Part shown: piece after piece, positions 5,770 through 62,268 of the stretch
Layout: each line of letters starts with the position of its first letter
Position numbering within the stretch: position 1 is the stretch's first letter
Source: Candidatus Gastranaerophilales bacterium
Lineage (GTDB): Bacteria; Cyanobacteriota; Vampirovibrionia; Gastranaerophilales; Gastranaerophilaceae
Direction of reading: 5' to 3'
NCBI GenBank assembly: GCA_944323155.1
Contig: CALURL010000001.1
Location: forward strand, 124,001 to 188,000
Length of the DNA: 64,000 bases
Made by a program: the position numbers and the translations under genes
The notes under the pieces: model-generated
The model's database searches: none
The model's input: the letters and a program-made list of their open reading frames with translations, nothing else
What the model was told of the DNA's origin: nothing

Positions 5770-6497
5770 TTAAATTATATCATCAACATCTTCTTCTTTT
5801 TCTTTAAAACATGGATAACCTTCAGGGATTTTCCAATTGTTTAGCTGCAATATTTTAGTTGCATTCACGCAATCATCACCCAATCCCTCGTCAGTTCCAT
5901 CCCATTCAGTTCCAACATATGGTTCAACTGCGCCATTGCAGAAATTCTTTGCTCTGAGATTGTTTTCACACCAACCTGGATAAAAACCAAATAAAAAAGT
6001 ATCAAGGCCTGTTACAACTTTATCAAGACTTGCTTTTTTGGCGTCAGGGAAAAATAAAATGTCATGACCGTAATAGGTAAATCTAGCAGCCGAACCATCT
6101 GCAAAATAAACGAACAATTTTCCATCTTTTTCTTCAGTTTTAGTAGCTTTAAGATAATTTTTAAAATATTTGTTATAAATTGCTAAATTGCATGCATAAC
6201 CATCTTCAGAGCCCTCTGAATCGCACGCACCAGTTAATTTCCAATCAGTACGCATACCATTGTCTATTTCTGAAAGCGTAACTGCCTGCCCCATCATAGA
6301 ATAAAATTTTTCTAATCTGGTTTCTATAACTTTTTTCTGATTACTTTGTATAAGAACGGGCATTGTCATTGATGAAACAACACCAATTATTCCAAGAGTA
6401 ACTAAAATTTCAGCTAAAGTAAAGGCCTTAAAAGTGGTGTAAAAGAAGACTAGGCCTATGCCCCCCCCCCCGTGAACTCTTCTAATTTGTTTTTCAT
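5770..6497 (-). CDS. Pilin-like gene 1, phase-variable candidate (OFF as sequenced)
   Basis: Type IV pilin/pseudopilin-like gene. From the ATG at 6497 (AAGGAG 8 nt upstream) the reading is MKNKLEEFT, a run of Gly codons, then a stop (13 codons). The pilin helix FTLAEILVTLGIIGVV lies in the frame obtained if the 11-G run had 12 (or 9) residues. With 12 it would encode 242 aa. The body (about residues 65-242) has several Cys and an acidic tail EEDVDD. It lacks the DxNGxxxPN motif seen in its paralogues. An ATG inside the helix (6369) would give a 199-aa protein without the leader and is unlikely to be used. A real frameshift and a homopolymer miscall cannot be told apart here. Confidence 0.85.
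6461..6471 (-). repeat. G11 homopolymer in pilin-like gene 1
   Basis: Eleven C on the plus strand, i.e. eleven G in the coding sense, starting at coding nucleotide 27. In-frame lengths are multiples of three, so this copy is one G short. The tract is followed by CATAGGCCTAGTCTTC, close to the tag at genes 2 and 3. Confidence 0.95.
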
Positions 6498-6525
6498 AAT
6501 AAATCTCCTTTTTTTATACCTTAAC

Positions 6526-20380: not shown

Positions 20381-20411
20381 AACAAAAGACCGCACTTAGC
20401 GGTCTTTTGTT
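20381..20411. terminator. Bidirectional terminator
   Basis: AACAAAAGACCGC-ACTTA-GCGGTCTTTTGTT, a 13-bp stem between pyk and pilin-like gene 2, overlapping the pilin stop codon. Confidence 0.92.
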
Positions 20412-21183
20412 ATTTATATTCTGCTCCAATTTCGTAATTCTGCGCCCTTATCTTTCCTGTAGATAAAATATTTACAATATCACCAACATTACCATCAACC
20501 GGTTTTATTGAATCCGGGTATATACCTAATTGATGTATGTCCGCACCATATTGATTTGGACCATTTTTCCCATTAGCATCAAGGGTTACAATAGCACATC
20601 TATAATCTTTATATGCCGGCTGCATTTGCGGCTTCCCATCAGGACCTAATATATAGTTCCCATCAGCATCAACATCAGGAGCCTGTCTGTCATTTTCACA
20701 AGATTCAAATTGGTTAACTTTTATAGAGCTTCCATCAGCAAGCGAAATTCTTGAACCAGCCCATTTATATGCTGCATTAGTCCCATAGCCATCATTTTGT
20801 GGTTTAAAATATTTTACATTGTATTCACCACCACAACCTTTATGGTCGCTAGAATGACATATACTTACTACATTAAAATATTTTGATAAAATATCTAAAA
20901 CCTCATCGGAAGTCTTTGTGGTATCAAATATTTGTAAATTATCAAATGCACCTGTTCGACCTTTTGCAAGTTCAATTCCTTGCATAAATGCACTATATGA
21001 TTTCTTTACCTGATTTACAATAACAATTTCCCTATAATTTGCGAGCAGAGCAGGGAGTGTTAAAGCAGCAACAACACCAATTACCCCAAGTGTAATTAGG
21101 ACTTCTGCCAGAGTAAAGGCGCTGGAAAAGGAGACTAGGCCTGTGCCCCCCCCCCCGTAAGCATCTTTTAATAATTTTTTCAT
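20410..21183 (-). CDS. Pilin-like gene 2, phase-variable candidate (ON as sequenced)
   Basis: A 257-aa type IV pilin/pseudopilin-like protein and the only in-frame member of the G-tract set. It begins MKKLLKDAY, then GGGGTGLVSFSS encoded by the G run and tag, then the prepilin helix FTLAEVLITLGVIGVVAALT with Glu at +5. Ala rather than Gly precedes the Phe. The globular part contains CHSSDHKGCGGEYN and the lineage-type motif DANGKNGPNQYGAD. GGAG precedes the ATG, and a good promoter is close by. Likely role: a surface or pseudopilus subunit processed by a prepilin peptidase not present in the window. Confidence 0.9.
   Translation of the reverse strand: MKKLLKDAYGGGGTGLVSFSSAFTLAEVLITLGVIGVVAALTLPALLANYREIVIVNQVKKSYSAFMQGIELAKGRTGAFDNLQIFDTTKTSDEVLDILSKYFNVVSICHSSDHKGCGGEYNVKYFKPQNDGYGTNAAYKWAGSRISLADGSSIKVNQFESCENDRQAPDVDADGNYILGPDGKPQMQPAYKDYRCAIVTLDANGKNGPNQYGADIHQLGIYPDSIKPVDGNVGDIVNILSTGKIRAQNYEIGAEYK
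21146..21156 (-). repeat. G11 homopolymer in pilin-like gene 2
   Basis: Eleven G in the coding sense at coding nucleotides 28-38. Here 11 (or 8, or 14) keeps the frame. The tag CACAGGCCTAGTCTCC follows directly. Confidence 0.95.
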
Positions 21184-21216
21184 GAATAATCTCCTTATAT
21201 AAATATTACATTTTTG

Positions 21217-34527: not shown

Positions 34528-35532
34528 TTGATAAAAAACATAAATAGTAGTACTACAACTAATATTAATAATAAAACATCATCGGACATAATAAATTCTC
34601 CACCAAAATACAATGACCCGCTTAACAATTGGGTATTAAGGGGAATGTCATATTCGAGCGATATCGGTGTTGCAATTAGTGAAATTGCGCCAAAATTTGG
34701 TGCTGCTCTGTGGGCACCAACATTTATGTACCTTGGAGCTGATATATATGACAAGTACAAAACAGATAAAAACAAATTTGACCCAAGCGCCAAAAGAGCA
34801 TTTAAACGTGCTGTATTTCAAGCACTTATGTCATTAATAGTAATGCCGGCAGTTATTTTTACTTCACAAAAACTAATATCGCCGCTATCTAAATTAACTA
34901 AGTCTAAGCTTTCAACCAATGCAAAAGATGCAGTAATTAAACACACTAAAGATATATTAAGCCAGACAGATAAAGAAAATTTTGACGACTTTGAAAAGTT
35001 CAAAAAAATTCTGGTTTCAACTTTAAAGAACAGGCTTGAAGCACAAAAAAATGAAAAACGCAGCACAAACATAGTAAAAAGGTTATACAATCTTGTCACA
35101 GGGAAATATTCAATACTCAAAGCCGATAAGGATAAGTTAGTTGAATTTGCAGAAGAAAATGCAAAAAAACTTTTTGAAATCAAAGATGCAATTTTAAATA
35201 AAAACAAAAAGAATATTCCGTATAATGTTCAAAAAAAATATAACAAAGTTCTTCCACAAATAGTTGAATTATATGGAAGAGATTACTCATACAGCGCCTT
35301 GAGAAGTGCTCTTAAAGAATATCAGAAATCTTTAATTTTTAAAAATAAACTGCTGAAAACAGCAGTTGGTTTTGCAGCAATGATAGCATTCACATCACCG
35401 GTGACAAGCTTTGTAGATAAAAATATCATGAAAAAATATATTTATCCTGAAATTGATATTATGTCAAAAGAGCTTGTAGCACGCTCCAGACTCAAAGAAG
35501 TATTTAACGAAATGATTAAAAGGAAAAATTAA
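34528..35532 (+). CDS. Unknown membrane-associated protein
   Basis: A 334-aa Lys-rich protein that I do not recognise. Two hydrophobic stretches (about residues 92-112, ALMSLIVMPAVIFTS, and 278-292, TAVGFAAMIAFTS) flank a long charged helical middle. The first 30 residues are Ser/Asn/Thr rich. The start is a TTG with only a weak AAGG upstream; an ATG at 34645 is an alternative. Its stop overlaps the stop of the convergent CpaF-like gene. Confidence 0.55.
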   Translation: MIKNINSSTTTNINNKTSSDIINSPPKYNDPLNNWVLRGMSYSSDIGVAISEIAPKFGAALWAPTFMYLGADIYDKYKTDKNKFDPSAKRAFKRAVFQALMSLIVMPAVIFTSQKLISPLSKLTKSKLSTNAKDAVIKHTKDILSQTDKENFDDFEKFKKILVSTLKNRLEAQKNEKRSTNIVKRLYNLVTGKYSILKADKDKLVEFAEENAKKLFEIKDAILNKNKKNIPYNVQKKYNKVLPQIVELYGRDYSYSALRSALKEYQKSLIFKNKLLKTAVGFAAMIAFTSPVTSFVDKNIMKKYIYPEIDIMSKELVARSRLKEVFNEMIKRKN

Positions 35533-36881
35533 TTTGATTCTCTATAGAAACGAGACTTCTTGACAGCAACATTCTCCGGTAATAATGAATGCGCTTTGAT
35601 AGATGTATAAGGCTGAGGAATGTCTATTATATATGAATTATTTTCCCATTTTGCTATGTTTTTCATAGACAAAGCCATTGTTCTTGCAGGTGAAAGTTCT
35701 GTTATAGAGGTAATTCTTCTTATCCCGTCTGAACATTTATTTATCTGAACAATATAATCAAATGTTGATAGGAATTTAAATTTTGCATATTTTTCAGTAC
35801 ATTTTTCTTCTGCCATATATGCACCAGCAATTTTTGATATTACATTTTCGACATTGCCGGCACGCAAGCTTAGAATATTACAAAAATTATGTTCAATAGC
35901 AGCGACAGAAGGATTGAAATAGAATGGATTATTAGAATCTACAACCATAAAATCAGGCGATATTTTAGTTAAGTTTGAAAATAGCTGCCTAAATTCATAA
36001 TCGGATTTTATTGAAGAGAAATCAAATTTCATTAATGTATCAGAATCCGCCTGAATTTGAGGGAATTCTTCTAATATAACACCTCTTTTGTTTGAAAGAG
36101 CAAGTTTGGCTAAAGCGTCGATAAACAAAGTTTTTCCTGAGCCAGAATCCCCTGAAACAATTACATTTTTTCCGGAATTAACAACAGAAACAAGAAATTC
36201 AAATAAATCTTCTGTAACAAAACCGGAATTTATAAATGTACTAAGTTCTAACAATTCAGGCCTTAGCTTTCGAATAACAATATTCACACCACTTTGAGAA
36301 ATTGGAGGTAGAATTACTGATATTATGAAATTCTCATATTTAATGTTTCTGACATATTCATTTGACTCAAAAGATTTATCAGAAAATGAAAAAATATTTT
36401 TTAAAATTAGATCTAATTGATTTTGTGTTAATTTAATTTCAGTATTCAATATTTTAGACGAAATTTCAATATGAACAGCATTTAGCCCATTAACATAAAC
36501 AACATCAACATTGTCTTGTTTTATAAGATAGTTTAGAGGACCAAAACCTGTGACAAAATTACACAACTTATCAATAAGAATAGATTTTTCCTGCTCAGAA
36601 ATATTGTGTTCATCTGAATTTAGTTTTGAGGTTACAAAAGTAGCAATTAATTCTTTTTGTTTTTCTAAAGAATAATCGTTCCAAACAGGAATTGATTCTA
36701 TTTTTTTTATAAGCTGGTTTTTATAAGTTTCTTCTAAGTCACTTGCAGAGACCAAAGCCAGCTCGACATTTTCCTTTGGAACTTGAATGTTTTCATTTAT
36801 CTGTACCGGTGTTTCTGGTACAATTACCTTTTGTTCTTGTTTTTTCTTAAATCTATTACTTAATCTGCTGCTCTGTAACAC
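35529..36881 (-). CDS. Degenerate CpaF/TadA-like secretion ATPase
   Basis: A 450-aa protein of the type II/IV secretion ATPase family, closest in layout to Tad-pilus CpaF. The N-terminal domain keeps GFGPLNYLI and VVYVNG (near residues 112-132). Walker A GDSGSGKT (244-251) is intact. The Walker B segment, normally RIIVGEVRG, reads FMVVDSNNP, and the His box normally ending in HAN reads LSLRAGN, so the catalytic Glu and a His appear lost. It may bind ATP without turnover or have a structural role. A GTG start with AAAGG upstream. It is co-transcribed with the CpaE-like gene 11 bp upstream. Confidence 0.82.
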   Translation of the reverse strand: MLQSSRLSNRFKKKQEQKVIVPETPVQINENIQVPKENVELALVSASDLEETYKNQLIKKIESIPVWNDYSLEKQKELIATFVTSKLNSDEHNISEQEKSILIDKLCNFVTGFGPLNYLIKQDNVDVVYVNGLNAVHIEISSKILNTEIKLTQNQLDLILKNIFSFSDKSFESNEYVRNIKYENFIISVILPPISQSGVNIVIRKLRPELLELSTFINSGFVTEDLFEFLVSVVNSGKNVIVSGDSGSGKTLFIDALAKLALSNKRGVILEEFPQIQADSDTLMKFDFSSIKSDYEFRQLFSNLTKISPDFMVVDSNNPFYFNPSVAAIEHNFCNILSLRAGNVENVISKIAGAYMAEEKCTEKYAKFKFLSTFDYIVQINKCSDGIRRITSITELSPARTMALSMKNIAKWENNSYIIDIPQPYTSIKAHSLLPENVAVKKSRFYRESN

Positions 36882-36892
36882 TATTTACCTTT

Positions 36893-38089
36893 CTAAAAAA
36901 TTCTTTCCATAACTTCATTAGCAGGAGATGAAAATTTCTTAATCAAATTTTGCTTGTACACACTGTCTGATACCATTAAAGCTAAATCCTTATAACTTCT
37001 GGCAACATTAGAATCCTGATTAATCTCGGCAACAGGAACACCTTTATTAATAGCTGACATCATGGTGAAGTAATTGTTAGGCACTTTCCAGAATATTTTC
37101 TTGCCCAAAACTTCTTCTACATCTTCTTTTTTTATTTCATCATTTTCCATATATCTATTAATTAATATTTGGATTTTTGAGTTATCAAATCCAAGCTTAT
37201 TGAATAATTCAAGGCATCTTTGTGAACTCCGCAAAGCAGGTAAGTTTGCAGTAGTTACAAGAAAAATTAAGTCTGAAAACTCCAAAGCTTTCATTGTTTT
37301 AGCATCAAATCCTGCTGATGTATCAACAACAATGTATGAAAAAGTATCTTTCAAAATTTCAAACAATTTTGATATTTGGATTGGAGAAATATTATCAGCC
37401 TGCTTAAAATAAGGTGGATCAGCAAGCACATACAAACTTGTATCCTTATATTTTTCAAGGGTGCTTAAAAGAAAATCCTCATTTATCTTATCGAGATTTT
37501 GAAGCATATAAGATATATTAAAAGATGGTTTTAAATCAAGAACAGTAGTTATATCACCCAATTGAAAATTTAAATCAATAAGTGCTACATTTTCTTTTGT
37601 AATTTTTGCAAGTTCTACTGCTAAATTTGAAGCAATAGAAGTTTTTCCAATGCCGCCTTTGTTAGAAAAAACTGTTAAAATACGGCATTTTGTTTTCTTT
37701 TTTTGTTGTCCGCAAAACTCACTTAAAATATCAGAAAGAATTGTGAAAAAATCATTCTTTATTAATGGAAGAGAAAGAAAATTTTTAACACCAGTTCTCA
37801 TAACTTTAACTATCAAATCAACATTTGGCCTGTCTGAGAGCGCAAGTATTTTACAATTTTCGAATTCCTGGGATATTTTAGCCATAAAGTTCAAGCCAGG
37901 GTCTGGATAATCAGAAATATCAATTATTATAAGTGATTTTGAAAGCTCTTTAACTGCTTCATAAGCCTTTGAAAAGTCGTCAGTAGCAGCCAAAAAATTG
38001 AATTCTCCGAATTCTTCCAGATAAAGTTTAATTAATTCCTGAGTATGTTTATCCTCAGAAATTACAATTGTAGAAATTTTCTGTCCCAT
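36893..38089 (-). CDS. CpaE/TadZ-like ParA-type ATPase
   Basis: A 398-aa protein. A response-regulator-like N-terminal domain (about residues 1-120, with IIIDISDYPDP and TGVKNFLSLPL) is fused to a MinD/ParA ATPase with deviant Walker A NKGGIGKT (about 143-150), a LIDLNFQLGD segment and YIVVDTSAG. TadZ/CpaE proteins place Tad pilus machinery at the cell pole. The start at MGQK (38089) is preferred because a promoter -10 box lies 6 nt upstream. It precedes the CpaF-like gene in one unit; pilin-like gene 3 lies just upstream but has its own terminator. Confidence 0.85.
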   Translation of the reverse strand: MGQKISTIVISEDKHTQELIKLYLEEFGEFNFLAATDDFSKAYEAVKELSKSLIIIDISDYPDPGLNFMAKISQEFENCKILALSDRPNVDLIVKVMRTGVKNFLSLPLIKNDFFTILSDILSEFCGQQKKKTKCRILTVFSNKGGIGKTSIASNLAVELAKITKENVALIDLNFQLGDITTVLDLKPSFNISYMLQNLDKINEDFLLSTLEKYKDTSLYVLADPPYFKQADNISPIQISKLFEILKDTFSYIVVDTSAGFDAKTMKALEFSDLIFLVTTANLPALRSSQRCLELFNKLGFDNSKIQILINRYMENDEIKKEDVEEVLGKKIFWKVPNNYFTMMSAINKGVPVAEINQDSNVARSYKDLALMVSDSVYKQNLIKKFSSPANEVMERIF

Positions 38090-38095
38090 ACTGCA

Positions 38096-38124
38096 ATAGT
38101 AGCACATTTAAGAAAAAGAGGCAA
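38096..38124 (-). promoter_or_regulatory. cpaE-like promoter, probably leaderless
   Basis: Minus strand TTGCCT (38119-38124), a 17-nt spacer and TACTAT (38096-38101), then 6 nt to the ATG. The -35 box lies in the stem of the pilin 3 terminator. Confidence 0.5.
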
Positions 38125-38155: not shown

Positions 38156-38946
38156 CTAATACTTTCCTGTCTGATAGTTTTCAGTTTCTATTAGTCTATC
38201 ATTTGCAAGTACATAGTCAATATTTCCCCAACCACTACTAGCATATCCTAAAGAATCGGTTCTAAAAGGTATTTCAAAGACATCGACACCAATTTGATTT
38301 GGACCTTTTAAGCCATTTGTATCAAATGCGATTCTTCCACAATTATCAGAAGATACCTCTTTCCCTTTAAATCCAGTTGGACTAGATGGATCAGGAATAA
38401 AATTACCATGTTCATCTTGTTCATTCGCCCAAGAAGTTTTTTTACAAGAACCATTAACAATATCAGAATGTATGGCTATAAATGAACCGTCAGTCATAAC
38501 TATTCTACTGAAATTAGATATCCAATCCTCACTAACTGTTTCACCAGAACCGTTATTCATTTTTTTATATTGCCTTATATTATAATAGCCTCCACAACGC
38601 TCGTTATCAGAGCCTAAGCAAATTTCAGCATGGTTTAATTCTTTAGCAAATTCTAATGTTAAATCTTCATCATTAGACTTGGAAAACCAAAACGCAGAAT
38701 AATCACCAGGTGTTTCATTTTTCGCAAGCCAGCTGTTCATTGCATTCATTATTGTTGAATAAGATTTCTTTGCGGACGCTACAAAAACTTTTTCTTTATA
38801 ATTAGCTATTAAATTAGGCAAAGTTAATGCAGCAACAACACCTATAACTACAAGAGTAATTAAAACCTCAGCAAGGGTAAACGCGCTAGAAAAGGAGACT
38901 AGGCCTGTGCCCCCCCCCCGCGAAGCTCACTAAATAAATTTTTCAT
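38156..38946 (-). CDS. Pilin-like gene 3, phase-variable candidate (OFF as sequenced)
   Basis: From the ATG at 38946 the frame reads MKNLFSELR, three Gly, then a stop inside the tag (15 codons). With 11 G instead of 10, it would encode 263 aa: GGGGTGLVSFSS, the helix FTLAEVLITLVVIGVVAALT, and a globular part with CLGSDNERCGGYYN and DTNGLKGPNQIGVD, closely parallel to gene 2. AAGGAAGAG precedes the ATG. A promoter lies about 215 nt upstream, separated by a GC-rich element. Ends in a terminator before the CpaE-like gene. A true shift and a homopolymer miscall cannot be told apart here. Confidence 0.85.
38910..38919 (-). repeat. G10 homopolymer in pilin-like gene 3
   Basis: Ten G in the coding sense from coding nucleotide 28, one short of the in-frame length of 11. 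The tag CACAGGCCTAGTCTCC follows, as in gene 2. Confidence 0.95.
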
Positions 38947-38959
38947 AATCAATCTCTTC

Positions 38960-39160
38960 CTTTCACTTAGCTATTTAACCTAAAAAGAAACTCTGCACAG
39001 ACGCGATTTTGTTACCTGCTTGTTCTCGCAGGTGGGTGAACGCCTCGGAAAATCCGTTTCCCGCTGGCGATTTTTCAATCGGCGGGTATACTTCATATCC
39101 TGTCAGAGTCAATTCTCCCTTTATAGTTAATGTAGGAACAAAATTAACATCCGCACAGAG
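38960..39160 (-). repeat. GC-rich hairpin element in the pilin 3 leader
   Basis: The segment is visibly richer in G+C than its surroundings. It contains an ACCTGC/GCAGGT hairpin (39014-39033) and a CCCGC...GCGGG hairpin with inner CGATT/AATCG (39060-39086). On the minus strand it is open for about 73 codons (38975-39196; e.g. GELTLTGYEVYPP) but the only start is a TTG inside the -35 box, so I do not call it a gene. It looks like an inserted repeat or remnant lying between the promoter and pilin start. Confidence 0.45.
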
Positions 39161-61386: not shown

Positions 61387-61422
61387 AAAAAGGCGGCAAC
61401 AATATTTGTTACCACCTTTTTT
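61387..61422. terminator. Probable bidirectional terminator
   Basis: AAAAGGCGGCAACA and TGTTACCACCTTTT pair with small mismatches and are followed by T. It overlaps the last codons of pilin-like gene 4 on the minus strand. Confidence 0.65.
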
Positions 61423-62268
61423 GAATTTCTTCGTCGCTTAAATGTAAATAATCCATATTATGATGCTTCAATATCCAATAACCGCATGTTGCACCAGGAA
61501 ACCAGTTATAAGCCCGCCGACACTGATTTTTACCACCCTGCGGAGAATCATCTATATTATTTGACCAGCGCGCTCCTGGAAGAATTTGCTGATAATTTGA
61601 CATTGTATTAAACGATAAAAAATGTGCATCTTCGCCAAACTTATTTGGTCCCTTATTGCCATTTAAATCAACAAAAAAATCAACTACAGTACCAGGAAAA
61701 TCATAAAATACAATAGATTCCCCTGAAATTAACCTTAAAGCAGGGTATTTGTTATAAGCACTATGAGAGTAATCTGTATCATTTTGTGAATTATCCAAAT
61801 TTTTATAATAATCTTGATAAATACATTTTTTATTACTTTTACCAGCAGGACAATCAACACTAATAACTAAATAAGGTTTTAATTTGTTATAAGTGTCAAC
61901 TGCAGATTTTTCCCAAGAGTCAAATGTTCCATGCTCGGGTATTGCAAAAGTATACGCTTGATTAAGAATACTATAAACCCGCAAATACGCAGTGACAAGT
62001 TGTTTTTCTCTATATTTTTGAATGACAGAAGGGAGCGTTAAGGCAGCGACAATGCCGATTACACCGAGAGTAATTAAGACCTCAGCCAGCGTAAAGGCGG
62101 AGTTTCGCTGCAATTGATTAAAGAACCTACGTGAGCAGCATCTCCAAAGAGGGCGAGGGGATAAAAATATAGGTTGGGCTTTCAGCCCAACAAGTTCTAA
62201 TATATTAGCTAAAACACGCTTTACGCGCGTGCCCCCCCCCCGATGAGCTTTCTAAAAGATTTTTTCAT
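61409..62268 (-). CDS. Pilin-like gene 4, phase-variable candidate (OFF as sequenced)
   Basis: From the ATG at 62268 the frame reads MKKSFRKLI, three Gly, ARA and a stop (15 codons). With 11 G it would be 286 aa: GGGGT, a 36-codon extra segment encoded by an inserted element, then SAFTLAEVLITLG and a normal pilin body with CPAGKSNKKC and DLNGNKGPNKFGED. AAGGAGG precedes the ATG. The insertion keeps the frame, and the long leader may or may not be tolerated by a prepilin peptidase. A real frameshift cannot be separated from a homopolymer miscall here. Confidence 0.82.
62104..62231 (-). repeat. Inserted palindrome-rich element in pilin-like gene 4
   Basis: Between the G tract and the helix, gene 4 has 108 nt more than genes 2 and 3. 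It contains a perfect GTTGGGCT/AGCCCAAC hairpin (62173-62191), CTAATATATTAG (62197-62208), and CACGC/GCGTG arms (62215-62231). It looks like a small mobile or REP-like element read in frame. Confidence 0.6.
62232..62241 (-). repeat. G10 homopolymer in pilin-like gene 4
   Basis: Ten G in the coding sense from coding nucleotide 28, one short of frame. The usual tag is replaced by CACGCGCGTAAAGCGTG. Confidence 0.95.

Follow-up and report, generated by a model that had tools for sequence, protein, structure and literature searches.

A short DNA tag that follows a poly-G tract in the leaders of divergent pilin-like genes is probably the control element of a mostly-OFF, phase-variable pilin repertoire: it joins a stop codon of the OFF frame to an anti-Shine-Dalgarno sequence that would act as a lock, and the choice of reading frame would open this lock. 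The genes were found in a window of 64,000 nucleotides from a Candidatus Gastranaerophilales bacterium, referred to below as the source genome. The preliminary description of this DNA had regarded the tag as a sign of gene conversion or of the recent spread of a cassette; the shared tag is, however, probably a small RNA lock and not a wandering cassette.

At 38890, 21126 and 6441 of the window, the sequence CA[CT]AGGCCTAGTCT[CT]CTTTT is found directly 3' of a G10 or G11 tract (Table 1). These three matches, all on the minus strand, compare with 0.03 expected by chance. The order of elements is Shine-Dalgarno sequence, ATG, about nine codons, G-tract, tag, a few codons and the pilin N-terminus FTLAEVLITLG. 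A tag common to genes 2 and 3, and nearly so to gene 1, had been reported before, and it is indeed present in the three genes, each time after G10 or G11. Its placement required adjustment: tract and tag are real, but they belong to the leader and precede the pilin N-terminal helix, and the G10 of gene 3 is out of frame. The prepilin motif of gene 2 exceeds the TIGR02532 cut-off (Table 1) and scores 16.1 bits against Pfam N_methyl, below the cut-off of 21.2; gene 3 without its leader reaches 16.1 bits against TIGR02532, slightly under the cut-off. Immediately downstream of gene 3, two minus-strand reading frames (35529-36881 and 36893-38107) resemble, by eye, CpaF-type and CpaE-type Tad pilus proteins.

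Table 1. Tract, tag and associated elements of four pilin-like genes of the window.
Feature	Position	Strand	Remarks
Gene 3 tag	38890-38909	-	CACAGGCCTAGTCTCCTTTT, after the G10 tract
Gene 3 OFF stop TAG	38899-38901	-	ATG frame when the tract is G10; peptide MKNLFSELRGGGAQA, then stop
Gene 3 anti-Shine-Dalgarno arm	38890-38898	-	TCTCCTTTT
Gene 3 G10 tract	38910-38919	-	OFF (out of frame) as assembled; G11 is ON
Gene 3 Shine-Dalgarno region	38953-38962	-	AAGGAAGAGA; match to the arm imperfect
Gene 3 start codon	38944-38946	-	
Gene 3 pilin-like ORF	38156-38946	-	263 aa if G11; FTLAE at 38867-38881
Gene 2 tag	21126-21145	-	CACAGGCCTAGTCTCCTTTT; TAG at 21135-21137; anti-Shine-Dalgarno TCTCCTTTT at 21126-21134
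Gene 2 G11 tract	21146-21156	-	ON as assembled
Gene 2 Shine-Dalgarno	21190-21196	-	AAGGAGA; complements TCTCCTT of its own tag
Gene 2 pilin-like ORF	20410-21183	-	257 aa; TIGR02532 16.8 bits (cut-off 16.3)
Gene 1 tag	6441-6460	-	CATAGGCCTAGTCTTCTTTT, after the G11 tract
Gene 1 anti-Shine-Dalgarno	6441-6449	-	TCTTCTTTT; pairs with AAAAGGAGA, one G-U included
Gene 1 OFF stop TAG	6456-6458	-	
Gene 1 G11 tract	6461-6471	-	OFF; G12 is ON
Gene 1 Shine-Dalgarno	6504-6515	-	AAAAAAAGGAGA
Gene 1 pilin-like ORF	5770-6497	-	242 aa if G12
Fourth pilin gene, G10 tract	62232-62241	-	ON ORF 61409-62268 at G11
Fourth pilin gene, tag		-	CACGCGCGTAAAGCGTG, without CTCC; OFF stop TAA at 62221-62223

The length of the tract decides what is read. 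When gene 3 carries G10, translation from its ATG ends at the TAG of the tag, while G11 yields MKNLFSELRGGGGTGLVSFSSAFTLAEV and a product of 263 residues. Gene 1 is also one step away from ON: its leader is one base shorter than that of gene 3 and its tract is one base longer, and the shorter leader is the reason why G11 is OFF and G12 is ON in this gene. A single difference in the tag of gene 1, CAT in place of CAC, creates the OFF-frame stop.

The same toggle emerged when frames were computed for 153 genes with a single clear long frame, in which a change of one unit in the tract exchanges the full reading frame for an early stop. As assembled, 134 of the 153 tracts are OFF (78 need +1, and 56 need -1) and 19 are ON; in the source genome, the figures are 5 ON, 52 in need of +1 and 3 in need of -1. 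ON is thus rarer than one in three, with p = 2.5e-9 overall and p = 5.6e-6 in the source genome, values that overstate certainty as they treat genes as independent. One-way undercalling of homopolymers was considered as a source of the OFF bias and rejected, since three other genomes (G142, G051 and G015) need -1 and the source genome +1.

The position of the stop follows the frame in which the genes were assembled. With G10, the codons of the tag are GCA xxx GCN TAG, and TCTCC comes immediately after. In 91/115 CTCC-bearing genes with an OFF tract, the assembled frame runs into its stop before or at CTCC; the other OFF frame does so in 30/115. Two sets depart from this order, namely a class of tags of genome G133, where the stop lies past the arm, and some genes of genome G383.

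Tract and pilin gene go together throughout the source genome, in which more than 70 genes carry the FTLAE motif. There are 75 G9NCA sites, nearly all of them within or beside pilin genes, and 59 of the 61 tract reading frames with a Shine-Dalgarno sequence and a start codon run into a pilin N-terminus in the correct frame. Hence, 59 pilin genes lie behind a tract in 1.8 Mb, with tract lengths of 9 to 12 among paralogues. When tracts were collected regardless of CTCC, this motif was present 3' of the tract in 23/61 genes and in 1/32 control reading frames; the tags of about 38/61 tract genes are devoid of CTCC, and the lock is therefore not universal. About 21 pilin leaders contain TAGTCTCC or a one-base variant, and a search of the genome returned 12/13 tag-like matches with at most one mismatch and 18 tract-plus-tag matches with at most three. 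CTCC was found nearby in none of the only three tract-free pilin genes that have a usable start and Shine-Dalgarno sequence, and a scan of viral contigs for the tag found none.

Various other arrangements were seen around these tracts. A second kind of tag without CTCC, approximately CA[AC][AG]CGCGTAGAGCGYGTTTT, follows G10 in the fourth pilin gene of the window (tract at 62232-62241) and in L028, L033, L040, L052, L058, L060, L066, L093 and L094; its OFF stop lies in the loop of a GC hairpin that is often followed by T-runs and could be attenuator-like. About ten pilin genes have a C10 tract on the coding strand (L036, L047, L048, L070, L088, L099, L105, L107 and L112 are examples), and their flanks, read on the opposite strand as YAC-G10-CANNCGC, are similar to those of genes in the G orientation. 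By eye, C10 is OFF in L036, with a stop close by, and C11 is ON. In L027, L041, L051, L090 and L096, a promoter-like TATAAT and the palindrome TAGTGATRT..TACATCACTA lie between tract and pilin, and the pilin of L027 seems to own a separate Shine-Dalgarno sequence and a TTG start, with the tract reading frame apart and upstream. Repeat DNA (TTGGGCTGAAAGCCCAA, GTGCTACGCAC and translations of the CHSELDSGS type) lengthens the leader from tract to FTLAE in L033, L040, L044, L058 and L086 and in G015 loci L187, L258 and L261, and is in frame in L058, the case that was read through. Finally, at L118 (G000:C8:59921-62921), the N-terminal part of a radical-SAM-like gene (MATESRNKMTFERLKYYKHLGGGALEC...CNCDCDFC) contains a G10 tract, and this gene may be phase-variable without encoding a pilin.

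Tags of this kind are also present in relatives. Searches that required CTCC found them in 107/383 genomes of the order, with tens of copies in single species, and a reversed control pattern was rare. The pattern G9NCANNNGC, which does not require CTCC, was searched in 146 genomes of the family and recovered CAGTAGCTTAACCTCC in genus g38 and CACCCGCAAATAACGCTCC in g14. The tags of other genera differ (CAGTAGCTTAACCTCC, CAACCCGTAAAACAGGCTCC and TAGAAACGCTCTCC), and each of them matches its own Shine-Dalgarno sequence; in genus g38, the Shine-Dalgarno sequence GGAGGTTAA is the exact complement of TTAACCTCC. Tract reading frames assembled from foreign genomes amounted to 119, most of them found with the CTCC-requiring pattern; because such sites were selected on CTCC, the evidence that they provide is confined to the flanking bases.

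Pairing was evaluated for each gene between the 18 bases upstream of the start codon and the 36 bases 3' of the tract. Over 109 genes, the Shine-Dalgarno region pairs with its own tag at -11.7 kcal/mol on average, compared with -9.5 when the tags of other genes were assigned by permutation (p = 5e-5); with one gene per distinct tag (n = 39) the values are -10.8 and -9.05 (p = 5e-5), and control stretches pair more weakly (-3.7 to -6.2 kcal/mol). The arm covaries with the Shine-Dalgarno sequence across species. In 95 distinct arm pairs, the base after GGAG is paired in 82% of cases (41% upon permutation), the second base after GGAG in 57% (37%) and the base before GGAG in 76% (65%), with p = 0.002, the permutation floor, at the three positions. 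The first of these positions is paired as C-G (26), A-U (26), G-C (17) and U-G (7). In the source genome, 22 genes with a TAGTCTNC tag reach -11.5, and controls -5.7 (p = 2e-8); pairing is not gene-specific within this genome (p = 0.20), as expected if all genes share one arm. Pairing between Shine-Dalgarno sequence and tag, with compensatory changes among relatives, is therefore a well supported prediction.

The distribution of identity along the genes bears on the origin of the tag. Past the N-terminal helix, the proteins of genes 1, 2 and 3 share 26-36% of their amino acids, compared with 93% identity of the tag DNA; equal similarity over the whole gene, the mark of a plain recent duplication, is not what is seen. 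Pairwise comparison of genes with TAGTCTNC tags (208 pairs) gave a DNA identity of 80% for the tag; the leader 5' of the tract reached 55% and the 20 bases upstream of the start 44%, and protein identity in the body was 32%. Where the amino acid is the same, 90% of codons agree within the tag, compared with 44% for the N-terminal helix and 53% for the body. Confinement of DNA-level identity to tract and tag across synonymous sites, as claimed in the preliminary description, thus holds. The constant part of the tag is, however, shorter than was then supposed: the invariant core is TAG-T-CTCC(TTT), that is, the OFF-frame stop and the complement of the Shine-Dalgarno sequence AAGGAGA. The bases before TAG vary (ACAGGC, AAGCGC, GGCCGC, CGCTGC and CGCCGC), while TAGTCTCC is constant, with TAGTCTTC in gene 1 alone; amino acids vary accordingly 5' of the core (TG-, KR-, GR- or RR-, followed by LVSF or VVSF). 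Since the core is constant, the 5' bases vary and the tags of other genera match their own Shine-Dalgarno sequences, conservation of the tag points to selection on a nucleic-acid function.

These observations leave gene conversion or cassette spread, in which tract and tag were recently copied between pilin genes and identity reflects common origin rather than function, as an unlikely main cause. Identical tags on divergent bodies and genome-specific tags in dozens of copies are what such copying would produce. An actual case is provided by the adjacent genes L061 and L062 (G000:C5, about 53.9 and 54.8 kb), which are near-identical over a shared 5' end of about 150-200 bp that begins some 60 nt upstream of the start and extends to some 60 nt past the tract; their bodies are 28% identical and their tracts are G12 and G10. 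In addition, the correlation between tag similarity and body similarity is no more than weak (Mantel r = 0.14, p = 0.0002). Copying of 5' ends thus takes place, and may contribute to the likeness of tags within one genome. However, neither the leader DNA 5' of the tract (55%) nor the 5' untranslated region (44%) is homogenised, constancy within the tag is limited to the stop plus CTCC, and copying neither predicts nor explains that the tag of each lineage complements its own Shine-Dalgarno sequence. A mobile cassette or MITE with inverted ends was also considered, and rejected because the DNA between the arms is non-homologous between genes.

An alternative slightly less probable than gene conversion is that the arms are a by-product of events at the DNA level, with no role in translation: the inverted repeat would reflect template-switch correction between its arms, or would favour slippage of a G-tract placed in its loop. 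The arms do form an inverted repeat that flanks the tract and leaves it in the loop, and template switching is known to produce perfect arms. Against this possibility, the 5' arm is the Shine-Dalgarno sequence itself, the arms tolerate G-U pairs (8% at the position following GGAG), and a stop adjoins the arm in the assembled OFF frame.

Folding predictions are mixed. The probability of pairing between Shine-Dalgarno sequence and tag is 0.86 in gene 3, 0.91 in gene 1 and 0.07 in gene 2, with a median of 0.68 in other genomes and variable values in the source genome. Competition from the G-tract for the same arm accounts for this variation; in several genes, the tract is predicted to pair with the anti-Shine-Dalgarno arm and to leave the Shine-Dalgarno sequence free. 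That the tract and CTCCTTTT form a hairpin of their own, a weak terminator or roadblock to which the Shine-Dalgarno match is secondary, seems nevertheless improbable: RNAfold often favours tract:CTCC pairing (P up to 1.00) and some other tags of the source genome look like a GC hairpin with a U-run, but tags of other genera have no U-run (CTCCTGAGAGG and CCTCCTGCGG), a G-run would accept any pyrimidine arm and leaves the flank-specific covariation with the Shine-Dalgarno sequence unexplained, and a terminator scan found no intrinsic terminator at gene 3. Two further candidates were discarded: an Rfam scan of the window returned two tRNAs only, with no known RNA family at the tag, and a reading of the OFF peptide end (GGGAxA, then stop) as a degron is at odds with the tags of other genera, which do not keep it.

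The mechanism that we favour is a frame-sensing lock, which may be envisaged as a two-part leader element: a stop in the prevailing OFF frame, and then an arm that would pair with the gene's own ribosome-binding site some 55-65 nt upstream, in a hairpin whose loop would hold the start codon and the G-tract. Slippage would add or remove one G in the tract. In the OFF frame, the ribosome would make a peptide of about 15 residues and halt just before the arm, so that the hairpin would close and further initiation would be blocked. In the ON frame, the ribosome would cross the arm and melt the hairpin, and the site would stay open during pilin synthesis. The sameness of tags within a genome would reflect the constraint that stop, arm and frame together impose on a short stretch, plus some copying of 5' ends. 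The architecture of the element, its frames, the covariation of the arms between species and the OFF bias of the assembled tracts are seen in the sequences; we infer that the hairpin forms in the cell and lowers initiation, that read-through relieves this effect, and that tract lengths change within living populations.

The components of such a lock have precedents. Occlusion of ribosome-binding sites by RNA pairing is known. In erm and cat translational attenuators, the site of the downstream gene is opened by a ribosome that a drug has stalled on a separate leader peptide. The element described here is similar in that a hairpin would hide the Shine-Dalgarno sequence and would open or stay closed according to where a ribosome stands on a short frame; in contrast, the hidden site would be that of the same reading frame, and the signal would be the length of the tract.

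A parallel for the tract is found in Neisseria, where pilC is phase-variable through a G/C tract inside the reading frame (G 9-20), and poly-G tracts of all kinds number about 15-19 per genome in N. meningitidis, N. gonorrhoeae and N. lactamica (PMC5953494). Both systems have a homopolymer of the same length range in the frame of a pilus-related gene, and the frame sets the ON or OFF state. Unlike in Neisseria, the tracts are located in the genes for the pilin-like subunits themselves and number about 60 per genome; nearly all are OFF by one step as assembled, and a stop and an anti-Shine-Dalgarno arm follow the tract. The genes resemble those of type IV pilins and pseudopilins (TIGR02532, PF07963) in the prepilin-type N-terminus FTLAEVLITLG after the leader, and differ from them in that the leader is extended by G-tract, tag and, sometimes, repeat DNA. 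A termite-gut genome paper mentions type IV pili genes in general terms only (PMC5877343). In the open-access literature, we found nothing on phase variation in Gastranaerophilales, and no paper that joins poly-G phase variation with hiding of the ribosome-binding site.

If the proposed lock is correct, two known devices, homopolymer phase variation and sequestration of the ribosome-binding site, would be united in one short element that recurs throughout a bacterial family, and the presence of conserved sequence right after the stop of an OFF gene would be explained. Frame switching would thereby become a control of initiation, as the OFF transcript would shut off its own initiation. The organism would possess a large phase-variable pilin repertoire. 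At the level of the family, we give about even chances to the broader view that dozens of pilin genes per genome are kept one slip away from ON, each with a frame-sensing RNA lock, and that few pilins would be expressed at a time.
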